Part shown: positions 24,019 through 34,551 of the stretch, one piece after another
Layout of the letters: each line of letters begins with the position of its first letter
How positions within the stretch are numbered: position 1 is the first letter of the stretch
Source: Candidatus Hebobacterum abditum
Lineage (GTDB): Bacteria > Armatimonadota > Hebobacteria > Hebobacterales > Hebobacteraceae
Direction of reading: 5' to 3'
Length of the DNA stretch: 55,586 nt
Assembly: GCA_029821875.1 (NCBI GenBank)
Contig: JALGXW010000032.1
Location: 1-55,586, forward strand
Position numbers and translations under genes: made by a program
Notes under the pieces: generated by a model
The model's database searches: none
The model's input: the letters and a program-made list of their open reading frames with translations, nothing else
What the model was told of the DNA's origin: nothing

Positions 24019-26160
24019 ATGGGCAAGTCACTCATCATAGTTGAATCACCGGCAAAGACCCGCACGATCGGGCGCTTTGTCGGCAGCAAATACCGGCTGG
24101 AAGCTTCGATGGGCCACGTTCGCGATCTGCCCAAGAGCGTCCTCGGCGTGGACGTCGAGCACGACTTCAAGCCCAAGTATTTGAACCTGAGGGCCCGCGC
24201 GCCGGTGCTCAAGAAGCTGCGGAACGCTGTCGCGAAGGCAGACGGCGTCTATCTGGCTACGGACCCGGATCGCGAAGGCGAGGCGATCGCCTGGCATCTC
24301 GTCCAAGCGCTCAAGATCAAGGACCCGAAGCGCATAGAGTTCAATGAGATCACCCGCGGGGCGGTCACGCGCGCGCTGGCGCATCCCCGCGACATCGATC
24401 CCCAGCGTGTAGACGCACAGCAGGCGAGGCGCATACTGGACAGGCTCGTGGGGTACAGCCTGAGCCCGTTGCTTCAGCGGAAGATGCGCAAGTGGGGCCT
24501 AAGCGCGGGCAGAGTCCAGTCGGTGGCCGTGCGGCTGATATGTGAGCGCGAGCGAGAGATAGAAGCGTTCACACCCGAGGAATACTGGGACGTTACGGCC
24601 CGCGTAACGCCGGGCTCGCCCGACGACGCGTTTCAGGTGAAGCTCGTCGAGAGGGAAGGCGAGAAGCTCAAGGTCCGCGATCAGGCGGAGGCCGAACAGG
24701 TCGCCCGCGAGATCTGGGAGGCGCCGGTTCGAGTTGATCGCGTCAAGGAGTCGAAGCAGGCCCGTCGTCCGCCTCCACCGTTCATCACGAGCACGCTCCA
24801 GCAAGACGCGGCCAATCGGCTTGGCTTCTCCGCCCGCCAAACGATGCGGCTCGCACAGCAGCTCTACGAGGGAGTGGAGTTGGGGGACGAAGGATCGCTC
24901 GGACTCATCACTTACATGCGAACCGACTCCCCGCGGGTTGCTTCGGAGGCGCAGAATACCGCGCGCGCGCTGATAGCCGAGCACTTCGGGGAGGAGTATG
25001 TGCCCGCACGCCCGCGGCGCTACGCCTCGCGCCGGGGCGCGCAAGAGGCGCATGAAGCGATCCGCCCCACCTACCCCGAGCGCCGGCCCGAGGACATCGC
25101 TCAGTTCCTCGACGACAGGCAGCGACGGCTGTACGAGCTAATCTGGTCGCGGTTCGTGGCGAGCCAAATGGCCGATCTGGAGCTATCGATCAAAGCCGTC
25201 GATGTGTCGGCCGGTCCCTACGTCCTGCGCGGACGCGGCGTTAGAATCGTCTTTGCGGGGTTCTCCCGCGTGTACTCCACGCGCGACGCGGAGGTCTCCG
25301 TCCCGCAGCTCGAAGAAGGAATGTGGCTCGACCTCGTGAGTCTCGAGGCCGTGCAGCGCTTCACCGAACCGCCCCCGCGCTATACCGAGGCGGGCCTCGT
25401 GCGTGCGCTCGAATCGAAGGGCATCGGCCGCCCCAGCACCTATGCGCCGATCATCGGCACCATCCAAGACCGCGGGTACGTCTACCTCGAGGAGAAGCGC
25501 TTCCGTCCCACTGACCTCGGTCTTGCCGTTACCGACCAACTCGTGTCGCATTTCCCCGACGTTATCAATGCCGAGTTCACGGCCGAGATGGAGGCCGCAC
25601 TCGACCAGATAGAGGAAGGCAAGGCCGATTGGGTCGAGACGCTCCGCAAGTTCTACTCGCCATTCTCCCAGTCAGTTGAGCAGGCGGAGGAGAAGATGGG
25701 AGAGGTGAGCGTCAAGCCTCGTGAGACCGACGAAGTCTGCGAAGAGTGCGGCCGTTCGATGCTCCTTCGCGTGGGTCGGCACGGCCCGTTCCTGGCTTGC
25801 TCCGGATATCCCGAGTGCAAGCACACGCGGCCGGCTCCCGGCGGGAAGGAGGAGGAGCGCGCCAAGAAGCCGCCCCCGGAGCCGACGGATGAGGTGTGCG
25901 AGAAGTGCGGCAGCCAGATGGTGATCCGCACCGGCCGGCGCGGACGCTTCCTTGCATGCTCCGGCTTCCCGAAGTGCAGGAACACGCGCTCCCTTCCCGA
26001 GGACGAGGCCGCGGCGAAGGAGGCGGCCGCGAACGAAACCTGCGACGTGTGCGGCCAACCCATGGCCGTCCGCCGAGGTCGTTACGGGCCCTTCCTGGGC
26101 TGCACCGGCTATCCGGATTGCCGTGGCATCAAACGCCTGCCGGAGCCTGTTAGCAACTAG
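24019..26160 (+). CDS. topA: DNA topoisomerase I
   Basis: The 713-residue type IA topoisomerase relaxes negative supercoils. It has VESPAKTRTI, the TOPRIM acidic motif DPDREGE, SAGRVQSVAVRLI and the active-site Tyr299 in LITYMRTDS. The C-terminus has three Cys4 zinc ribbons (CEECG...CSGYPEC, CEKCG...CSGFPKC, CDVCG...CTGYPDC), the usual number. The ATG at 24019 has no recognisable Shine-Dalgarno sequence, but the protein begins exactly where the family does. Confidence 0.97.
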   Translation: MGKSLIIVESPAKTRTIGRFVGSKYRLEASMGHVRDLPKSVLGVDVEHDFKPKYLNLRARAPVLKKLRNAVAKADGVYLATDPDREGEAIAWHLVQALKIKDPKRIEFNEITRGAVTRALAHPRDIDPQRVDAQQARRILDRLVGYSLSPLLQRKMRKWGLSAGRVQSVAVRLICEREREIEAFTPEEYWDVTARVTPGSPDDAFQVKLVEREGEKLKVRDQAEAEQVAREIWEAPVRVDRVKESKQARRPPPPFITSTLQQDAANRLGFSARQTMRLAQQLYEGVELGDEGSLGLITYMRTDSPRVASEAQNTARALIAEHFGEEYVPARPRRYASRRGAQEAHEAIRPTYPERRPEDIAQFLDDRQRRLYELIWSRFVASQMADLELSIKAVDVSAGPYVLRGRGVRIVFAGFSRVYSTRDAEVSVPQLEEGMWLDLVSLEAVQRFTEPPPRYTEAGLVRALESKGIGRPSTYAPIIGTIQDRGYVYLEEKRFRPTDLGLAVTDQLVSHFPDVINAEFTAEMEAALDQIEEGKADWVETLRKFYSPFSQSVEQAEEKMGEVSVKPRETDEVCEECGRSMLLRVGRHGPFLACSGYPECKHTRPAPGGKEEERAKKPPPEPTDEVCEKCGSQMVIRTGRRGRFLACSGFPKCRNTRSLPEDEAAAKEAAANETCDVCGQPMAVRRGRYGPFLGCTGYPDCRGIKRLPEPVSN

Positions 26161-26279
26161 GCAGTGCTCGATTCTGGCGGGTCGCATTCCCCATCGGGCG
26201 CGACGTACCGGTCGGCGCGTGCTGTTCTACCGGCCGCGCACGGCCACTGCATCACACGGCCGGCTACGCCCATCCTCGC

Positions 26280-26309
26280 TTGACACCCTCGAATGGCCGG
26301 TGTTATTAT
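26280..26309 (+). promoter_or_regulatory. Promoter of the asd-lysC-dapA operon
   Basis: TTGACA at 26280-26285 and TATTAT at 26304-26309, 18 bases apart, lie 27 bases before the asd ATG. The leader would be about 20 bases, too short for a lysine riboswitch. Confidence 0.65.
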
Positions 26310-26336
26310 CGCCGGTACCGTGGAGCGCCAACGAAG

Positions 26337-27461
26337 ATGACATCATCGCAGCCAGAGTATCGAGTTGCCGTGGTGGGGGCTCGGGCCGTCGGACGGGAGA
26401 TGATCCGGGTTCTCCGCCAGCGAAGATTCCCGGCGGCCAGTCTTCGTGTCTTCGCTACGCGCGAGCGCGACATAAGCGTCGACGGCGAGACCTACCACGT
26501 AGACGTCATCAGCGAAGATGCCTTCGACGACATCGATGTCGCCTTCTTCGCCGGGGGCGACAAGCGCGAGGGGCACTTCGGACCCGTTGCGGCCGGACGT
26601 GGGACGGTCGTTATCGACAATGCCGATGCCTTCCGGCTCGACCCGGACGTGCCTCTGGTGGTCCCAGAAGTCAACCCAGATGCTCTGCGGGAGCACCGAA
26701 ACCTCATCGCCAACCCGAACTGCTCTACGATCCAGTTCGTAGTTGCTCTCAAGCCCCTTCACGATGCAGCCCGCCTCAAGCGGGCCGTCGTCGCGACATA
26801 TCAGTCGGTCTCGGGCAGCGGCACCTCTCCGGCGGGCAGCGATCCTGTTGACGCGCTGCGACAGGAGATGGTGATCCTGTGCGAGCGTCTCTGCCAGGCG
26901 GCTGACAGCGGACTACCCGAGGAACGCTTGCACCTGATCATCCGCTCGGCGCAGGAGTGCACGGGCGAGCTGTGCACAGATCCGACGCTCTTCCCCCATC
27001 CTATCGCCGGCAACGTGATCCCTCACATCGCCAGCTTCCGCGAGGACGGCTACTCGAAGGAAGAGATGAAGCTCACCAGGGAGACCCAGAAGATCCTAGC
27101 GGAGCCAGAGCTCAAGATCACATCCACCACCGTGCGTGTCCCCGTGTTCAACTGCCACGCCGAAGCAGTCAACCTCGAGTTCGAGCGGCCGCTGTCCCCT
27201 GAGCGCGCCCGTGAGATCCTTGCCGCTTCTCCAGGCCTCGTTGTTCTCGACGATCCGGAGGCCGCCCGATACCCGACGCCACTCGAGTGCTCCGGCACCG
27301 ACGAAGTCTTCGTTGGGCGAATTCGGCGCGATGATACGGTCCCACATGGGCTGAACCTGTGGGTAGTAGCCGACAACCTGCGGAAGGGGGCGGCGCTCAA
27401 CGCGATCCAGATCGCTGAGAAGATGATGGAGATGGGATTGCTGTCACCGAAAGCCAAGTGA
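26337..27461 (+). CDS. asd: Aspartate-semialdehyde dehydrogenase
   Basis: The 374-residue enzyme reduces aspartyl phosphate to the semialdehyde for lysine, methionine and threonine. The nucleophile is Cys129 in NPNCST; QSVSGSGTSPAG and the substrate-binding RVPVFNCHAEAVNLEF are present, and NLWVVADNLRKGAA closes the C-terminal NADPH domain. ATG 26337 gives the usual short lead to the first strand; a start at 26280 would sit on the promoter. Next gene lysC begins 13 bases later. Confidence 0.93.
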   Translation: MTSSQPEYRVAVVGARAVGREMIRVLRQRRFPAASLRVFATRERDISVDGETYHVDVISEDAFDDIDVAFFAGGDKREGHFGPVAAGRGTVVIDNADAFRLDPDVPLVVPEVNPDALREHRNLIANPNCSTIQFVVALKPLHDAARLKRAVVATYQSVSGSGTSPAGSDPVDALRQEMVILCERLCQAADSGLPEERLHLIIRSAQECTGELCTDPTLFPHPIAGNVIPHIASFREDGYSKEEMKLTRETQKILAEPELKITSTTVRVPVFNCHAEAVNLEFERPLSPERAREILAASPGLVVLDDPEAARYPTPLECSGTDEVFVGRIRRDDTVPHGLNLWVVADNLRKGAALNAIQIAEKMMEMGLLSPKAK

Positions 27462-27473
27462 GGTCCGCGCGCA

Positions 27474-28724
27474 ATGAGGGTCGTAGTTCAGAAATTCGGC
27501 GGCACGTGTGTCGAGTCTGAAGCGAACCAGCTCATCGCGGCAGAGCGCATTATGGAGGCCCGCGACCGGGGGCTTTACCCGGTCGTCGTCGTGTCCGCAA
27601 TGGGCAGGCAGGGGCAGCCGTACTCGACCGCTGAGTTGGTGAGCACCGTTCGACGTATCCATCCAGACATCGATCCCCGCGAGCTCGACTTGCTCATGTC
27701 GTGCGGCGAGATCATCTCCACCGTCGCGATGGCTCATCTCCTGAGCACGAAGGGCTACGAGACCATCGCCCTAAGCGGCGGACAGGCCGGCCTTATCACT
27801 GACGGCTTCTTTGGCCACGCTCGCATCGTGCGAATCGAGCCGAGGCCGCTTCTCTCTGCGCTCCAGGAAGGGCGCATGGTCTTCGTCGCCGGCTTCCAGG
27901 GCAACACGGAGGATCATCAGATAACGACGTTGGGCGCTGGCGGGAGCGACTACACGGCCGTTGCGCTGACGCGTGTGATCCAGGACACTCCCCGCCTCCC
28001 GTTCGGGGACGACCTGGACGTGGAGCCTCTCCAGATGTACAAAGACGTGGATGGAATCATGACGGCGAATCCGACGAGCCTGGAGGAGGGACATAGTCCG
28101 CAGACATTGCCGCAGCTGACATACGACGAGTGTGTATCCATGTCGCGCCTCGGCGCGGAGGTGCTTCAGCAGCAGGCCGCGGAGATGGCGCGGAAGTACG
28201 GGATCCCGCTCGCCGTCCGCAACTTCCTCGCCGCCGACGGCCCCGGGACCGAGGTAGGTGTTGCCGGCGGCAGCAAGGACGGGCGTGCAACGGCCATCGT
28301 GGATCAGCCCAAGCTGCTGGTGTTCGATGTCGAATGCGACAGCCTCCGGCTCCCACTGCAGATAGCCGAGCGCCTGGAGCGGGCGCGCTTGACCTTCTTC
28401 CAGGTATCCTCTGGGGAAGCTGCCTCGAGGTTCGCCGTAAGGCCGCTGAAGTATCGCGACGTGGAGGCCACCGTCGGCGACACACTGGCCACGCACGGCA
28501 CGGTTGCGGAGATCAACGCGAGCGACTTCGCCCTCGTTTCCGTCGTCGGCGAGACGCTGCGCGAACGGCTCGACTCCTGGCGCCAGCAGGCGGAGCGTGT
28601 CCTCGCCGACAACAGCCTAACAGTTCACGGCAGCGCCGAAGGCGAGATCAGCTTGTCCTTCCTGGTGCCTGAGGAAGAGCGCAAGAAGGCCGTGAGTTGT
28701 CTTCATCAGGCACTCGTTCTGTAG
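27474..28724 (+). CDS. lysC: Aspartate kinase
   Basis: The 416-residue kinase commits aspartate to the lysine/threonine family. KFGGT is at residues 7-11, followed by MSCGEIIS, TLGAGGSDYTAVAL and YKDVDGIMTANP, then a C-terminal regulatory half (about 275-410) with ACT-like strands (VVGETLRERLD). It probably senses an end product, but its identity cannot be read. ATG 27474 after a modest AGG. Confidence 0.93.
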   Translation: MRVVVQKFGGTCVESEANQLIAAERIMEARDRGLYPVVVVSAMGRQGQPYSTAELVSTVRRIHPDIDPRELDLLMSCGEIISTVAMAHLLSTKGYETIALSGGQAGLITDGFFGHARIVRIEPRPLLSALQEGRMVFVAGFQGNTEDHQITTLGAGGSDYTAVALTRVIQDTPRLPFGDDLDVEPLQMYKDVDGIMTANPTSLEEGHSPQTLPQLTYDECVSMSRLGAEVLQQQAAEMARKYGIPLAVRNFLAADGPGTEVGVAGGSKDGRATAIVDQPKLLVFDVECDSLRLPLQIAERLERARLTFFQVSSGEAASRFAVRPLKYRDVEATVGDTLATHGTVAEINASDFALVSVVGETLRERLDSWRQQAERVLADNSLTVHGSAEGEISLSFLVPEEERKKAVSCLHQALVL

Positions 28725-28749
28725 ACTGGCACAACTAAGGAGATAGCGC

Positions 28750-29631
28750 GTGGCCCTGGAGGTCGAAGGCGTCTTTGCACCCAATGTCACCCCATTCTCT
28801 GCGCACTCAGTGGATGAGGCAGGCCTGCGCCGAGTACTCGACTACCTGATTGACAGCAAGATCAGCGGGCTGGTGCCCTGTGGTACCACCGGCGAGTCTG
28901 CCACCCTCAGCCACGAAGAACACAGACGCGTGGTCGAACTCACGATACAGCACACCTCGGGCCGCGTGCCAGTCATCGCCGGGGCTGGCTCCAACAGCAC
29001 CCACGAGGCCACCGAACTGGTGAAGCACGCGGAAGGCGCCGGGGCCGACGGCGTGCTTGTCATCTGTCCCTACTACAACCGGCCGACGCAGGCGGGGCTC
29101 ATCAGGCATTTCACGGCCGTGGCAGAGGCCACCTCCCTTCCGCTCATCATGTACAACATCCCCAAACGCACGGGTGTGAACATGGACGCGGATACGGCCG
29201 TCCAGCTTTCCCGAATTCCCAACATCGTCGCCACGAAGGAGGCCAGCGGCGATCTGCTGCAGGTAGCCGACATCATACGTGAGGCCGATCCAGAGTTCGC
29301 AGTGCTGAGCGGCGACGGTAATCTGACGTTCTCGATCTGCTGCCTTGGCGGGGTCGGAGGGATCCTCGCCGATGCGCACGTTCTGCCGGGCGAGTGGCTT
29401 CGGATGGTGAGTCTAGTCGCGGAGGGCAAGGTCGCCGAGGCGAGGGAGATCCACTACAGTCTCCTGCCGGTGGCCCGCGCCCTGTTCCTTGAGACGAATC
29501 CGGCTCCCGCGAAGGCCGCTCTCGAGATGATGGGCATCTGCTCGAGTGAGGTACGGCTGCCACTGCTGCCGGCGACAGACTCCTGCCGCGGAGCCCTACG
29601 AGAGGAGCTCAATAAGGTTGGCGTCGTCTAA
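28750..29631 (+). CDS. dapA: 4-hydroxy-tetrahydrodipicolinate synthase
   Basis: The 293-residue aldolase condenses pyruvate with aspartate semialdehyde. It shows GTTGES, the active-site Tyr135 in YNIPKRTG, Schiff-base Lys163 in VATKEASGD and the GVGGILADA turn. GTG 28750 follows AAGGAGA. Third gene of asd-lysC-dapA; dapB or dapL is not in the window. Its last 14 bases overlap the start of the uracil-DNA glycosylase gene. Confidence 0.95.
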   Translation: MALEVEGVFAPNVTPFSAHSVDEAGLRRVLDYLIDSKISGLVPCGTTGESATLSHEEHRRVVELTIQHTSGRVPVIAGAGSNSTHEATELVKHAEGAGADGVLVICPYYNRPTQAGLIRHFTAVAEATSLPLIMYNIPKRTGVNMDADTAVQLSRIPNIVATKEASGDLLQVADIIREADPEFAVLSGDGNLTFSICCLGGVGGILADAHVLPGEWLRMVSLVAEGKVAEAREIHYSLLPVARALFLETNPAPAKAALEMMGICSSEVRLPLLPATDSCRGALREELNKVGVV

Positions 29632-30226
29632 CGGGAAGCAGGCGCTGGAACAGGTTCACACAGACGTCCACTCGTGCCGCCTCTGCCCTCTCTGCCGAAG
29701 TCGCACCAAGGCAGTCCCGGGCGAGGGCGCCGTCGATGCTCGGATTATGTTCGTGGGCGAGGCGCCGGGGTCTGATGAGGATCGCCAGGGGCGTCCTTTT
29801 GTGGGCGCTGCAGGCCGAGTGTTGACCGACCAGCTCAAGAAGGTGGGCATCGACCGGCGCCAGGTGTTCATCACCAATGTCGTCAAGTGCCGGCCGGAGG
29901 GAAACCGCGATCCGGAGGCGGCGGAGATCGAGGCCTGCCGCGACCACCTTCTCACACAGATAGCCATCATCAACCCGAAGGTCATCTGCACGCTGGGACG
30001 ATTCGCGGCGAGGACGCTCATCGACAACGGCATCTCGATCAGCCGTGAGCACGGCAAAGCGCGACGCATCAGCGGCATCCTCTACCTGCCCATCTACCAT
30101 CCGGCGGCGGCGCTGCATCAGGCACGACTCATCGACTCGCTGGAGAGCGACTTCCGCAAACTGAGATCAGTCCTGGAGGAAGAGCTGGGGACTGCCACCT
30201 CTCCTCAAGCCGCGAGCGATGCCTGA
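29618..30226 (+). CDS. Type-4 (iron-sulfur) uracil-DNA glycosylase
   Basis: The 202-residue protein matches family 4 UDG, which removes uracil from DNA. It has CRLCPLCRSRT near residues 20-30, FVGEAPGSDEDRQGRPFVGAAG, VVKCRPEGNRDP followed by a Cys in EIEACR (iron-sulfur ligands), and YHPAAALHQ, where His replaces the role of the classical motif. TTG 29618 sits inside the end of dapA, about 10 bases after AGAGGAG, and gives the normal family length. The longer upstream frame reads through dapA in another frame and is unlikely. Confidence 0.9.
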   Translation: MASSNGKQALEQVHTDVHSCRLCPLCRSRTKAVPGEGAVDARIMFVGEAPGSDEDRQGRPFVGAAGRVLTDQLKKVGIDRRQVFITNVVKCRPEGNRDPEAAEIEACRDHLLTQIAIINPKVICTLGRFAARTLIDNGISISREHGKARRISGILYLPIYHPAAALHQARLIDSLESDFRKLRSVLEEELGTATSPQAASDA

Positions 30227-31007
30227 TCGGGCAGCTTTGAACCTGGCGACGCTTGGCCCGCTTACACTCGAGCAGAAGCTCTACGCGGCCGTGACGGCCG
30301 GGTTTGGGGCCGTCGGACTCAGGGCGAGCGATCTGGAGGAGCCTGAAGAGCGGGGCCGGGAGGAGCTTCGCCTGAGCGAGTTGGGGGTGGCCGAGCTGGA
30401 GGGTGTCGAGGGCTGGATGGGTCCGAGCCGTACCGCTCGCAGCCTCGCCATCGTCCGAGCAGAACACGTCTTCGCCATCGCGGCCGATGTCGGCGCCGCC
30501 GTTGTCATTGCCTGGCCCTCTGAAGACCCTGTGGGGCCCTTGGCGGCAGCCACCCACTTCGCCGATCTGTGCCGCGCGGCCGAGCCGTTCGGGATTCGGG
30601 TCGGACTGGAGTTCCTTGGCCATTCTTCTACGGTGAAGGACCTCTCCTCCGCGTGGCGCATCGTAGAGATGGCGGAGATGGCCAACGGCGGGGTCGTGAT
30701 CGACACCTTTCACTTCCACCGCGGGGGCTCCAGTCCGGGAATGGTAGACCCGATCCCGGCCGACAGGATATTCCTGGTGCAGGTGAGCGACGCACCCGAC
30801 CTGCCCCTGCGCGAGCTCGAAGACAAGCACCGGCTGTACCCAGGCACGGGTGCTCTTGCCCTGGAGCAGATCATGGCAGCCGTGCGGGCGAAAGGCTACC
30901 TTGGCCACTACTCGCTCGAGCTGCACAATGAGGAGTACTGGGGAGAGGACCCAGTAGTTGTCGCTGCTGAAGGCCTCCGGTCCATGCGGCGACTGGATAT
31001 CATATGA
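30219..31007 (+). CDS. Xylose-isomerase-like TIM-barrel (sugar phosphate isomerase/epimerase family)
   Basis: The 262-residue protein is an AP-endonuclease-2/xylose-isomerase-like barrel. Candidate metal residues are the Glu in GLEFLGHS, Asp/His in VIDTFHFHRGG, His in the QVSDAPD...DKHRLYPGTG stretch and Glu in SLELHNEEYWG, a pattern of inosose- and hydroxypyruvate-isomerase relatives. The substrate is unknown. ATG 30219 overlaps the UDG stop. An alternative DNA-repair role because of its neighbour UDG is unlikely, as the sequence fits the sugar branch. Confidence 0.8.
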   Translation: MPDRAALNLATLGPLTLEQKLYAAVTAGFGAVGLRASDLEEPEERGREELRLSELGVAELEGVEGWMGPSRTARSLAIVRAEHVFAIAADVGAAVVIAWPSEDPVGPLAAATHFADLCRAAEPFGIRVGLEFLGHSSTVKDLSSAWRIVEMAEMANGGVVIDTFHFHRGGSSPGMVDPIPADRIFLVQVSDAPDLPLRELEDKHRLYPGTGALALEQIMAAVRAKGYLGHYSLELHNEEYWGEDPVVVAAEGLRSMRRLDII

Positions 31008-31021
31008 GGAGGATCGACACG

Positions 31022-31678
31022 ATGAAGAAGCAAGTGCTCGCGGAGCTGAAACCCATCTGTGACAAGATACGAACGCAGTTCGATGCAAAGGACTCGGCCA
31101 GGGAGAAGGCGCTCACCAGATCGCGAGAGGTGATACGCAACAGCGCGAACGCAATCCGCGCCGTGCACCGGGCCGAGTATGAAGAGGCGAAATCCCTGAT
31201 GGCAGCGAGCGCGCAGCTCCTTGCCGAGGTCGACGAGGCGCTGAATGGGCATCCTGGCATCTACCACGCTGGCTTCGTGCACGACGCCCAGAAGGAGCAC
31301 GCCGAGGCCCACCAGACCTATGCTCTCATCCGTGGGGAGCCGCTCCCTGATCCCGACGACCTCGGAGTGGGCTATCCAGCATACCTGAACGCGCTCGGCG
31401 AAGCCGTCGGCGAGCTGCGACGATATGCCCTGGACCGCGTGCGCCACAACGAGAGCGGGTGGGGAGAAGGCGTGCTGGCGTCCATGGACGAGATCTACTA
31501 CGCGATGGTCTCCTTCGATTACCCGACCGCGATATCGGGCGGCCTCAAGCGCACGGCCGATGTCACTCGTTCCCTGATCGAGCGCACCCGCGGCGATATC
31601 ACGAATGCCACCCGCCAGCAACGCCTCGAATCCGCTCTCGCGGAGCTGGAAGCGCGGTTGAAGGTCGTGCCACAGTAG
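31022..31678 (+). CDS. Translin-family protein
   Basis: The 218-residue all-helical protein fits the translin/TRAX family. Signatures are LTRSREVIRNSANAIRAVHR (residues 31-50), QKEHAEA (90-96), GVGYPAYLNALGEAVGELRR (115-134) and ASMDEIYYAM...YPTAISGGLKRTADVTRSLIERTRGD. TRAX-type catalytic acids appear conserved as Glu92/Glu95 (ExxE) and Asp156, so RNase activity is plausible. ATG 31022 is eight bases after GAGGAGG; ATG 31004, overlapping the previous stop, would add six residues. Eukaryotic translin-TRAX is the C3PO RNase; archaeal homologues are known and bacterial ones are fewer. Confidence 0.82.
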   Translation: MKKQVLAELKPICDKIRTQFDAKDSAREKALTRSREVIRNSANAIRAVHRAEYEEAKSLMAASAQLLAEVDEALNGHPGIYHAGFVHDAQKEHAEAHQTYALIRGEPLPDPDDLGVGYPAYLNALGEAVGELRRYALDRVRHNESGWGEGVLASMDEIYYAMVSFDYPTAISGGLKRTADVTRSLIERTRGDITNATRQQRLESALAELEARLKVVPQ

Positions 31679-31726
31679 ACGACCGAGATCAAGGGCACTC
31701 CCCTCAAAGAGGACTGAGAGGCGCTG

Positions 31727-31864
31727 ATGGCGGCGCCAGAGAGTGGCCGCGAACAGTGCCACGAACCGGTATACTCTCGCATGGCGGCTGAGTTAGCTCT
31801 GGCAGGGCAGCGGCGGGCGGCGAGGAAGTGGGCGGAGAAGCGAGGCGGGGGGACAGACATCTAG
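31727..31864 (+). CDS. Possible small basic protein, 45 residues
   Basis: A short open frame starting at ATG 31727 after a GA-rich stretch (AAGAGGACTGAGAGG). The product is basic, alanine-rich and predicted helical in its second half (RMAAELALAGQRRAARKWAEKRG). It lies in the 209-base gap after the translin gene and ends 23 bases before the next start. No family recognised; it may be random. Confidence 0.3.
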   Translation: MAAPESGREQCHEPVYSRMAAELALAGQRRAARKWAEKRGGGTDI

Positions 31865-31887
31865 CCGGCCGAGGGGGAGGATCTCAG

Positions 31888-32427
31888 ATGAAGCTCAGTC
31901 CGACGGTTGCTCTTGTAGTGTGCGTGGTCGCGTTGCTCGGCAGCGCCGGGCATACGGCTGAGGAGCCATCCCCGGAAGCGTCCATGTCGGTATTCAGTGA
32001 GAGCGGCATGGAAGGGTTGCGGGAGGTTAGGGTAGTCGTCGCGGAGATCGACGACCGTCTCGAACATAGACTCAATATGTCCGATCAGAAAGTGATGTGC
32101 TGCGTTGAACGCTACCTTCGCGAGATTCCCGGATTGACAGTGTCCGACTCCTCCTCAGCGTATGTCTACGTCGCAATCACTGGATTTGCACACGATGGAC
32201 CTACTGGCCACGTGAGGCTGGATCTCGTGCAACGGGCGTATGTTCACAGGTCCCATCCTGGTAGTGGGGAGAAGGTCCTCGTAGTCCCCGCGGCGACGTG
32301 GAGCGGAGGAAGGGTATTCACCCAACCGGGGATGGTTGGTAATACGATGATGATGGTGGCACTTAGGACGACGCTCGACGAGTTCCAGAACGAGTACCTG
32401 AAGGCCAACCCGGACGTGAAGGCGTAG
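31888..32427 (+). CDS. Hypothetical secreted protein, 179 residues
   Basis: I do not recognise the family. An N-terminal signal peptide (LSPTVALVVCVVALLGSAGHTA) is clear. The mature part is a small alpha/beta domain: EVRVVVAEIDDRL, an amphipathic helix (DQKVMCCVERYLREIPGL), then strands (AYVYVAITGFAHDG, HVRLDLVQRAYV, EKVLVVPAATWS). The pattern recalls small periplasmic lipoprotein-like domains, but two cysteines in MCCV are not a lipobox. ATG 31888 follows GGGGGAGG. Ten bases ahead of the next membrane-protein gene, so likely a functional pair. Confidence 0.65.
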   Translation: MKLSPTVALVVCVVALLGSAGHTAEEPSPEASMSVFSESGMEGLREVRVVVAEIDDRLEHRLNMSDQKVMCCVERYLREIPGLTVSDSSSAYVYVAITGFAHDGPTGHVRLDLVQRAYVHRSHPGSGEKVLVVPAATWSGGRVFTQPGMVGNTMMMVALRTTLDEFQNEYLKANPDVKA

Positions 32428-32436
32428 AGGGAAGCG

Positions 32437-33273
32437 ATGAAACGAGTTCTCCGACGTGTGGGTGGGTTCCTGCGCTGGCTGGGTGTGGTGACCGTCATTG
32501 CGATCGCCGGGTTTGCCCTAGCAGTCGCGGCTGTTACGTTCCTGGTCATCGTGTGGCCGGAGGTGACTCAGAACGCCGGGGACGCTATGGTCTATGTCAG
32601 CCTGGCTGGTGTCGTTGTTGCGCTACTAGTAGGCGCGGGGATAGTCTACTTCGCTTATGTCCAGCGCGTTCAGCAGAAGTTCATGCTGGAGCTGGCGGTA
32701 GTGCCAGTCATGTCAGCATACGTGGCACCCACTGATACACGTGGGGGCCAATGGGTGCAAGACCTGCAGGTACAGAACGTTGGGAATGGGCCGGCGATGG
32801 ACCTGGACGCGACACTATATGGGCGCATCGGCGAGGAATACCGATCCAGGCACGTCGTCCTCCCAACGCGCAGGCACATCGAGAAGGGCGGCGCGGAAGT
32901 CATCTACGACACGGGCGTGGAGAAGCAGGAACATAATCCGCTACGAGGGGTCCTCGACGTGTGGATACTGCACTACGCGGACCTGAACGGGAACCACTGG
33001 CACTCGTGGTGCAACTGGGACCCTGAAGAGGACAGACATGTGCCGACGGGAACCTTCGTCTTCCGCTCGAGACTCGATACGCCGTCTTGGATAGGCCAGC
33101 ACTGTGAGCGCTGCGTCGACCTGGGATGGGAAACCAGGGGCGGCCTCCGCGAGCATCTCGACGTCCCCGCCCATATTGTTGATATGGAGCGGTTCAGGCG
33201 TAGGGTCATGGAACTCGAGGAGGACCTTGAGCGTGGGGCCGCAGACGCCACGGAGGAGGCGAGGGATGAGTGA
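32437..33273 (+). CDS. Hypothetical two-helix membrane protein, 278 residues
   Basis: Two hydrophobic helices near the N-terminus (about residues 15-40, VVTVIAIAGFALAVAAVTFLVIV, and 52-75, VSLAGVVVALLVGAGIVYFAYV) anchor a soluble domain. That domain (about 85-235) has alternating strands and a tryptophan/cysteine-rich section, HYADLNGNHWHSWCNWDPEED, and ends with a charged coiled-coil-like helix. The layout (membrane hairpin plus beta-sandwich) recalls small sensor proteins of unknown role, but no family is recognised. ATG 32437 follows AGGGAAG. Overlaps the next small gene by GTGA. Confidence 0.65.
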   Translation: MKRVLRRVGGFLRWLGVVTVIAIAGFALAVAAVTFLVIVWPEVTQNAGDAMVYVSLAGVVVALLVGAGIVYFAYVQRVQQKFMLELAVVPVMSAYVAPTDTRGGQWVQDLQVQNVGNGPAMDLDATLYGRIGEEYRSRHVVLPTRRHIEKGGAEVIYDTGVEKQEHNPLRGVLDVWILHYADLNGNHWHSWCNWDPEEDRHVPTGTFVFRSRLDTPSWIGQHCERCVDLGWETRGGLREHLDVPAHIVDMERFRRRVMELEEDLERGAADATEEARDE

Positions 33274-33521
33274 GCAGGGGCAGGCCGGGACCCAATGAGA
33301 CACTGGCGCCGGTACTCGAAGGTGCTGTTCGCGATCCTGGCGGCGGCCGTCCTGCGGTGAAGGGGGAGCGGCCGACATGGCAAGTCGCCCTGATCGGAAT
33401 GCTCGTCGGGCTAGCGATCGCCGTCGAGCTGGCTAATCGGTGGATCACGGTCGCCCTCTGCATCGCCGTCGGCGGGGTGATCGGGGCCGTGATCGGATCG
33501 ATCCGGAGCAGGAGGCGCTGA
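33270..33521 (+). CDS. Small membrane protein, 83 residues
   Basis: Starts at GTG 33270, overlapping the stop of the previous gene, or possibly at GTG 33357, which gives a 54-residue product. The last 50 residues hold two hydrophobic helices (WQVALIGMLVGLAIAVEL and ITVALCIAVGGVIGAVIGSI) and end SIRSRRR, a positive-inside tail. The first 30 residues are proline- and glycine-rich and may not be translated. Probably belongs with the two upstream genes. Function unknown. Confidence 0.45.
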   Translation: MSRGRPGPNETLAPVLEGAVRDPGGGRPAVKGERPTWQVALIGMLVGLAIAVELANRWITVALCIAVGGVIGAVIGSIRSRRR

Positions 33522-33551
33522 TTGCAGTTCCAAGAATCCCTGTGCTATAAT
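33522..33551 (+). promoter_or_regulatory. Extended -10 promoter for trpS, near-leaderless
   Basis: TTGCAG at 33522-33527 and TATAAT at 33546-33551, 18 bases apart, with TGC directly before the -10. Only ten bases separate the -10 from the trpS ATG, so the predicted mRNA starts about four bases before the start codon. Confidence 0.75.
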
Positions 33552-33561
33552 CCCGAGCACC

Positions 33562-34551
33562 ATGTCCCAACAGAAGAAGAAAGTCATATTCAGCGCCATG
33601 CAGGTCACCGGGAGACTCCATCTCGGCAACCTGGAGGGCGCTCTCCGCAACTGGGTGCGACTGCAGGACGACTACGAGCTCTATGCGGGCATAGTGGATC
33701 TGCACTCCCTCACGACCTCCTACGAGGACACGGGGGAGATCCTTGAGAATGTCCGTCAAGCGGCCGTCGACTACCTGGCGGCGGGGCTGGACCCGGAGCA
33801 GACAGCTATCGTCGTCCAGTCATGGGTGCCGGCCCATTGTGAGCTGCACGCGCTCCTCTCCATGATAACGCCAGTCGGCTGGCTGGAGCGGGTCCCAACC
33901 TACAAGGAGAAGCGAGAGCAGCTTCACATCGCTTCTCCCTCATACGGCTTGCTCGGCTATCCGGTGTTGATGGCCGCCGACATCCTGGTGTATCGGGGCG
34001 AGGTTGTGCCCGTGGGACGCGATCAGGAACCCCATCTCGAACTGACGCGGGAGATAGCGCGTCGCTTCAACCACCTCTACGGGCAGACATTCCCAGAGCC
34101 GCAGTCACTTCTCACTGAGTTTGCCGTGCTGCCTGGCCTGGATGGCCGTAAGATGAGCAAGTCCTACGGCAACTGCATCTACCTCTCAGACAGCCCGGAC
34201 GAGGTGCGGGAGAAGGTCCGCACCATGTTCACCGACCCGAAGAAGATCAGGAAGGCCGACCCCGGTCACCCCGACGAATGCCCAGTGTACGCCTATCACG
34301 TCGCCTATGCGCCCGAGAGCGCGGAAGAGACAAAGCGCGCCTGCGAGGCCGGAGAACTGGGCTGCGTGGCCCATAAGAAGGATCTCGGCGACATCCTGAC
34401 AGAGGCGCTCACACCTCTCTGGGAGCGGCGCGAGGCGCTGATCGCCGATCCTGGCTACGTAGATGGGGTCCTGCAAAAAGGCGCGCAGCGAGCTTGTGAG
34501 AAGACCGACGAAACCATGGAACTCGTCTGGCGGGCAATGAAGCTTCGGTAG
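33562..34551 (+). CDS. trpS: Tryptophanyl-tRNA synthetase
   Basis: The 329-residue class I synthetase has the HIGH-like GRLHLGNLEG close to the N-terminus and KMSKSYGN near residue 197; VPVGRDQEPHLELTREIARRFN is typical of bacterial TrpRS. ATG 33562 is fixed by the family start (KVIFSAMQVTGRLHLGN). There is no Shine-Dalgarno sequence, and the promoter lies only ten bases upstream, so translation is probably leaderless. Confidence 0.96.
   Translation: MSQQKKKVIFSAMQVTGRLHLGNLEGALRNWVRLQDDYELYAGIVDLHSLTTSYEDTGEILENVRQAAVDYLAAGLDPEQTAIVVQSWVPAHCELHALLSMITPVGWLERVPTYKEKREQLHIASPSYGLLGYPVLMAADILVYRGEVVPVGRDQEPHLELTREIARRFNHLYGQTFPEPQSLLTEFAVLPGLDGRKMSKSYGNCIYLSDSPDEVREKVRTMFTDPKKIRKADPGHPDECPVYAYHVAYAPESAEETKRACEAGELGCVAHKKDLGDILTEALTPLWERREALIADPGYVDGVLQKGAQRACEKTDETMELVWRAMKLR

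Follow-up and report, generated by a model that had tools for sequence, protein, structure and literature searches.

The gene at positions 31022-31678 of the forward strand, here called trax, encodes what sequence profiles and a predicted fold identify as a TRAX-type member of the translin superfamily. Its open reading frame is intact (218 amino acids, stop at 31678) and lies in the window, by which we mean the whole stretch of 55,586 nucleotides that was analysed. Homology, fold and the conservation of four acidic positions were established for trax. Our preferred explanation, to which we assign a probability of about 0.62, is that bacterial TRAX is a homo-oligomeric, C3PO-like ribonuclease acting in RNA turnover, perhaps that of tRNA. 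According to this model the protein, a single-copy member of the superfamily that seems to be inherited mostly vertically, probably forms a closed homo-oligomer like archaeal C3PO; short RNA would be cut inside the oligomer, with metal ions held by E92, E95, E127 and E131. The likeliest role would be the turnover of RNA fragments, perhaps fragments from tRNA maturation, and the position of trax behind dapA and udg in this lineage would mean expression with lysine-biosynthesis genes and would be no mark of a function in repair.

Family membership and distribution

A preliminary description of this DNA had called the product a translin-family protein, and had proposed Pfam family PF01997 and an alignment with TRAX and archaeal homologs as checks. 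The first gave a weak match only (18.5 bits, E 0.0022), below the gathering cut-off of 25.9, which is a curators' threshold and not a biological feature; among the relatives, 16 of 24 match PF01997 at E<=0.01, the best at 3.2e-7. The second bore the assignment out: a phmmer search of PDB sequences found AfTRAX (2.8e-20) and NEQ131 (6.6e-8), and E92 and E95 fall at active-site positions. A profile of 24 Armatimonadota sequences reached AfTRAX (2.8e-37), NEQ131 (8e-16), human TRAX (2e-5) and fly TRAX (0.004), and in this same search no translin chain was matched.

The AF2 model of the protein (mean pLDDT 92, pTM 0.85) consists of helices only and has the all-alpha translin fold. C3PO structures are its top Foldseek matches, AfC3PO coming first (target-normalised TM 0.90-0.92 for the best chains), followed by NeC3PO (TM about 0.9), the human and fly TRAX chains and, last, the translin chains. 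The profile matches to AfTRAX and human TRAX, together with a fold ranking led by C3PO and TRAX, are the reason for calling the protein TRAX-type; it was kept in the superfamily despite the sub-threshold PF01997 score because homology was shown by the other sequence and fold tests.

Among sequence families the best match is to the NCBIfam PRK14562 models (NF011160 and others), which score up to 251 bits over the full length of the protein, below the cut-off of every model (291 for the best one). The name given to these models (NF011156-NF011161), 'haloacid dehalogenase superfamily protein', is inappropriate for trax and seems to be a misnomer. In some loci a HAD-type hydrolase does neighbor trax. 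The host genome holds one trax homolog; neither the homolog search nor PF01997 detected a separate translin partner in it.

How widespread is the gene? The host belongs to the Armatimonadota. The gene is near-universal in this phylum (254 of 291 genomes, and 181 of 194, or 93%, of good genomes, defined by completeness of 90% or more and contamination no higher than 5%) and common in our samples of Chloroflexota (the phylum of locus L037; 112 of 201) and Actinomycetota (the phylum of L034; 84 of 198). Such retention in good Armatimonadota genomes, and the frequency of trax in two further phyla, make it likely that the gene matters to the cell. A tree of 176 sequences shows strong clustering by phylum (9 changes, versus 76 in shuffles), the pattern that mostly vertical descent of trax would be expected to give. 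Because the tree is a quick one with a very long archaeal branch, nothing was concluded on its root. Prokaryotic translins were reported earlier (Gupta et al. 2012, as cited in PMC5424206); the family is already known in bacteria, and the distribution of trax is very broad and its annotation poor. The preliminary description held that bacterial translins are little studied, and no functional study of one was found in the literature searched. Through a bacterial TRAX one could learn what role C3PO-type RNases play where RNA interference is absent.

The active site

The catalytic residues of human TRAX are E126, E129, D193 and E197 (PMC9753400), and in mice the E126A change abolishes TRAX RNase activity (PMC8504676). 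In trax the codons of E92 and E95 (31295-31306, forward strand) align with AfTRAX QELVEA and are taken as human E126/E129; those of E127 and E131 (31400-31414, forward strand) have the Asp and the Glu of FADAVGELRR as their AfTRAX counterparts and are taken as human D193/E197, the human numbering being reached indirectly, via the AfTRAX alignment. The distances of three and four residues between the acidic positions of human TRAX are matched by E92/E95 and E127/E131. Of the AfTRAX sequences in the PDB, 3zc1 carries the Asp that aligns with E127, and the RNA complex, 3zc0, has Ala in its place.

The residues first listed as TRAX-like and retained were Glu92, Glu95 and Asp156. Glu92 and Glu95 stand, but the catalytic column is that of E127 and not of Asp156, and the fourth active-site residue, E131, had been missed. 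D156 was rejected as a catalytic residue: it lies within ASMDEIYY, the two archaeal proteins have Glu at this position, and Asp is found there in 151 of 175 bacterial sequences, the others having mostly Glu or Gly.

E92, E95 and E131 are invariant in all 175 bacterial sequences. Position 127 is also always acidic, being Glu in 170 sequences and Asp in five; Glu for Asp thus appears to be common to the bacterial sequences sampled, and this change could alter or weaken catalysis. Does the protein then cut RNA at all? The presence of Glu in place of the usual catalytic Asp in nearly all of these sequences would speak for an inactive nucleic-acid binder that, like translin, holds RNA or single-stranded DNA without cutting it. 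We consider such a binder improbable, however, since the three other active-site glutamates do not vary, position 127 keeps its acidic character throughout, and both profile and fold lie nearer to TRAX than to translin. That trax encodes an RNase is plausible on the predicted structure and the alignment, and the earlier suggestion that it may be an active one gains support from the fold and from four carboxylates, one of them Glu for Asp. Through this conserved replacement the catalytic mechanism could also be tested cleanly.

The gene run and its neighbors

A codon-usage gene caller placed trax in a run of genes on the forward strand. The run opens with asd (aspartate-semialdehyde dehydrogenase, 26337-27461; PF02774 and PF01118), followed at short gaps by lysC (aspartate kinase, 27474-28724; TIGR00657, 228 bits, cut-off 209) and dapA (4-hydroxy-tetrahydrodipicolinate synthase, 28750-29631; TIGR00674, 319 bits, above cut-off). 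Then come udg (type-4 uracil-DNA glycosylase of 202 amino acids, 29618-30226; TIGR00758, 197.3 bits versus a cut-off of 125.3; PDB 4zbx, E=3e-52), a gene for a xylose-isomerase-like TIM barrel protein of the sugar isomerase/epimerase type (30219-31007; PF01261, Pfam 82 bits) and trax. In the preliminary description trax was the last gene of a chain of overlapping genes that started in dapA and included the type-4 UDG. It is indeed the last of a compact chain, and dapA overlaps udg by 14 nt and udg overlaps the TIM barrel gene by 8 nt; the real start, however, lies earlier, with asd and lysC, the TIM barrel gene between udg and trax had been left unnamed, and trax follows that gene after a 14-nt gap, without overlap.

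Direct reading of the sequence places an AGGAGG ribosome-binding site at 31007-31012 (forward strand), nine bases before the ATG at 31022. Translation of trax is therefore taken to start at 31022 and not at a second in-frame ATG upstream, at 31004; the start residue is identical in a relative of the same genus (L296). A promoter-like site, TTGACA-18-TATTAT, lies upstream of asd (26280-26309, forward strand; a consensus match only, 11/12). It is the sole such site in 26100-33600, where shuffled sequences gave 1.3 at a looser threshold. By pattern evidence, there are no terminator-like sites on the forward strand between the genes of the run, apart from a weak match inside udg. Downstream of trax the same run continues with small genes and then trpS (33562) and scpA (34757). 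The interval 31888-33521, between trax and trpS, contains two or three small genes, none of which matched a family; it looks like a lineage-specific insertion because trax and trpS are close neighbors in L112-L114.

We surveyed the neighborhoods of 175 non-redundant trax loci from three phyla, and no neighbor was conserved across the family. A gene for the CCA-adding enzyme lies directly downstream of trax on the same strand in 10 of the 175 loci (L093, L097, L098, L121, L122, L123, L124, L132, L175 and L176), all in Armatimonadota and from four families, and overlaps it by some 20-45 nt in seven of the ten. TRAX-SepRS operons have been published for archaea (PMC5424206, PMC8762117), and C3PO removes pre-tRNA fragments in Neurospora (PMC3834833). 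With the CCA pairing, these reports make RNA turnover, possibly of tRNA, our best guess at the function. The gene pair and the archaeal operons would also fit a dedicated nuclease of tRNA maturation or tRNA fragments, partnering the CCA-adding enzyme across the whole family, which is a narrower form of our preferred explanation. On the tree, however, three changes or fewer account for the CCA pairing, so that it is clade-limited like the udg link and only somewhat wider, and the window contains no tRNA gene. The window also lacks a CCA-adding enzyme beside trax. SepRS was dropped as a partner, since none was found in the host genome.

Another apparent tie to tRNA was set aside. In 29 of 77 Actinomycetota loci a tRNA-Ala(CGC) gene lies within 300 nt downstream of trax, but in three genomes that lack trax and have the same upstream gene this tRNA also follows that gene. 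It therefore belongs to an older neighborhood and is not evidence for trax; being non-specific, the adjacency counts against a dedicated tRNA nuclease, which we hold to be doubtful. The arrangement small membrane protein, trax, tRNA-Ala(CGC) is conserved among Actinomycetota loci (L187, L190, L193, L195-L200, L227 and others). It also seems unlikely to us that trax encodes a core RNase, common to Armatimonadota, Chloroflexota and some of the Actinomycetota, that would use an all-Glu TRAX site for tRNA maturation or tRNA-fragment clearance alongside the CCA-adding enzyme; such an enzyme would have escaped notice through its sub-threshold Pfam score and its haloacid dehalogenase label in NCBIfam.

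Other neighbors are of local occurrence. A ThiD2-ThiE fusion lies just upstream of trax in 29 loci (within L042-L108 and L210-L213) and a membrane pyrophosphatase-like gene, named from sequence and not scanned, just downstream in 22, both mostly in Chloroflexota. The fusion and the H+-pyrophosphatase were discarded as clues to function, being kept in Chloroflexota only and making no evident functional sense. In some Armatimonadota (L130, L134, L138, L149 and L150) a RadC-family gene is directly upstream of trax, and in three of these five loci it abuts or overlaps it.

There remains the idea, raised in the preliminary description, of a link with DNA repair. In one form of it the trax protein and type-4 UDG would be partners in base-excision repair, the former processing, for instance, nucleic acid that arises once uracil has been removed. 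The two genes do share one compact run in the window, in L112-L115 and in L296, all of the same order, but the proposed survey of neighborhoods turned out against the link: only four of the 175 loci (L112-L115) have udg beside trax, and all four belong to the window's order. In L112-L114 the gene order extends to trpS and scpA, and L112 is collinear from topA to scpA; with the whole stretch collinear in relatives, udg is no closer a partner of trax than is dapA. In three further genomes the two come apart. A genome of the same family (G195; a single contig of 3.15 Mb, estimated 81% complete) keeps the run asd-lysC-dapA-udg-TIM intact and in order, and trax was not found anywhere in it. Two genomes of the same class (G192 and G193) have the asd-lysC-dapA-udg cluster with a relative of the TIM barrel gene (L297, L298) and carry trax elsewhere; in G192 trax is at 2.94 Mb and udg at 4.47 Mb, 1.5 Mb apart. 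These arrangements indicate that the older unit is asd-lysC-dapA-udg-TIM, and that trax stands with it only in the window's lineage.

Nor does the TIM barrel protein supply a repair partner. Its best PDB matches are IolI and the 5hmq protein; in NCBIfam it matches QuiC and hydroxypyruvate isomerase, both below cut-off, and otherwise only the general PF01261 family applies. No match to endonuclease IV appeared in the Pfam, NCBIfam or PDB searches. An AP endonuclease was accordingly rejected as unsupported and, since the protein is closest to the IolI/QuiC type, the idea of a UDG and AP-endonuclease pair was removed. The comparative data thus contradict the repair link and largely refute it, and we regard joint action of the trax protein and UDG as very improbable indeed. 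A type-4 UDG gene within the lysine operon asd-lysC-dapA, overlapping dapA and with the TIM barrel gene downstream, occurs in the window, L295, L297 and L298, and this arrangement is found in at least two families of the window's class.

Comparison with known systems

Human TRAX in C3PO (PDB 3pja, 3qb5) is like the trax product in fold and in the i/i+3 and i/i+4 spacing of its acidic residues; it forms a hetero-octamer with translin, whereas the genome carrying trax yielded no second homolog. AfTRAX/AfC3PO of Archaeoglobus fulgidus (PDB 3zc0, 3zc1) is about 33% identical along its full length and has the same fold (TM 0.90-0.92) and the Glu/Glu/(acid)/Glu pattern of the active site. The trax gene differs in being bacterial, in its place in a lysine operon and in having Glu (E127) for the catalytic Asp. 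NEQ131/NeC3PO of Nanoarchaeum equitans (PDB 5jr9, 5jrc, 5jre) is similar in fold (TM about 0.9) and in its E/E/acid/E pattern, but is only about 20% identical and has Asp at the third acidic position. For NeC3PO, according to the summary given in PMC9051087, Trax alone degrades RNA by oligomerising.
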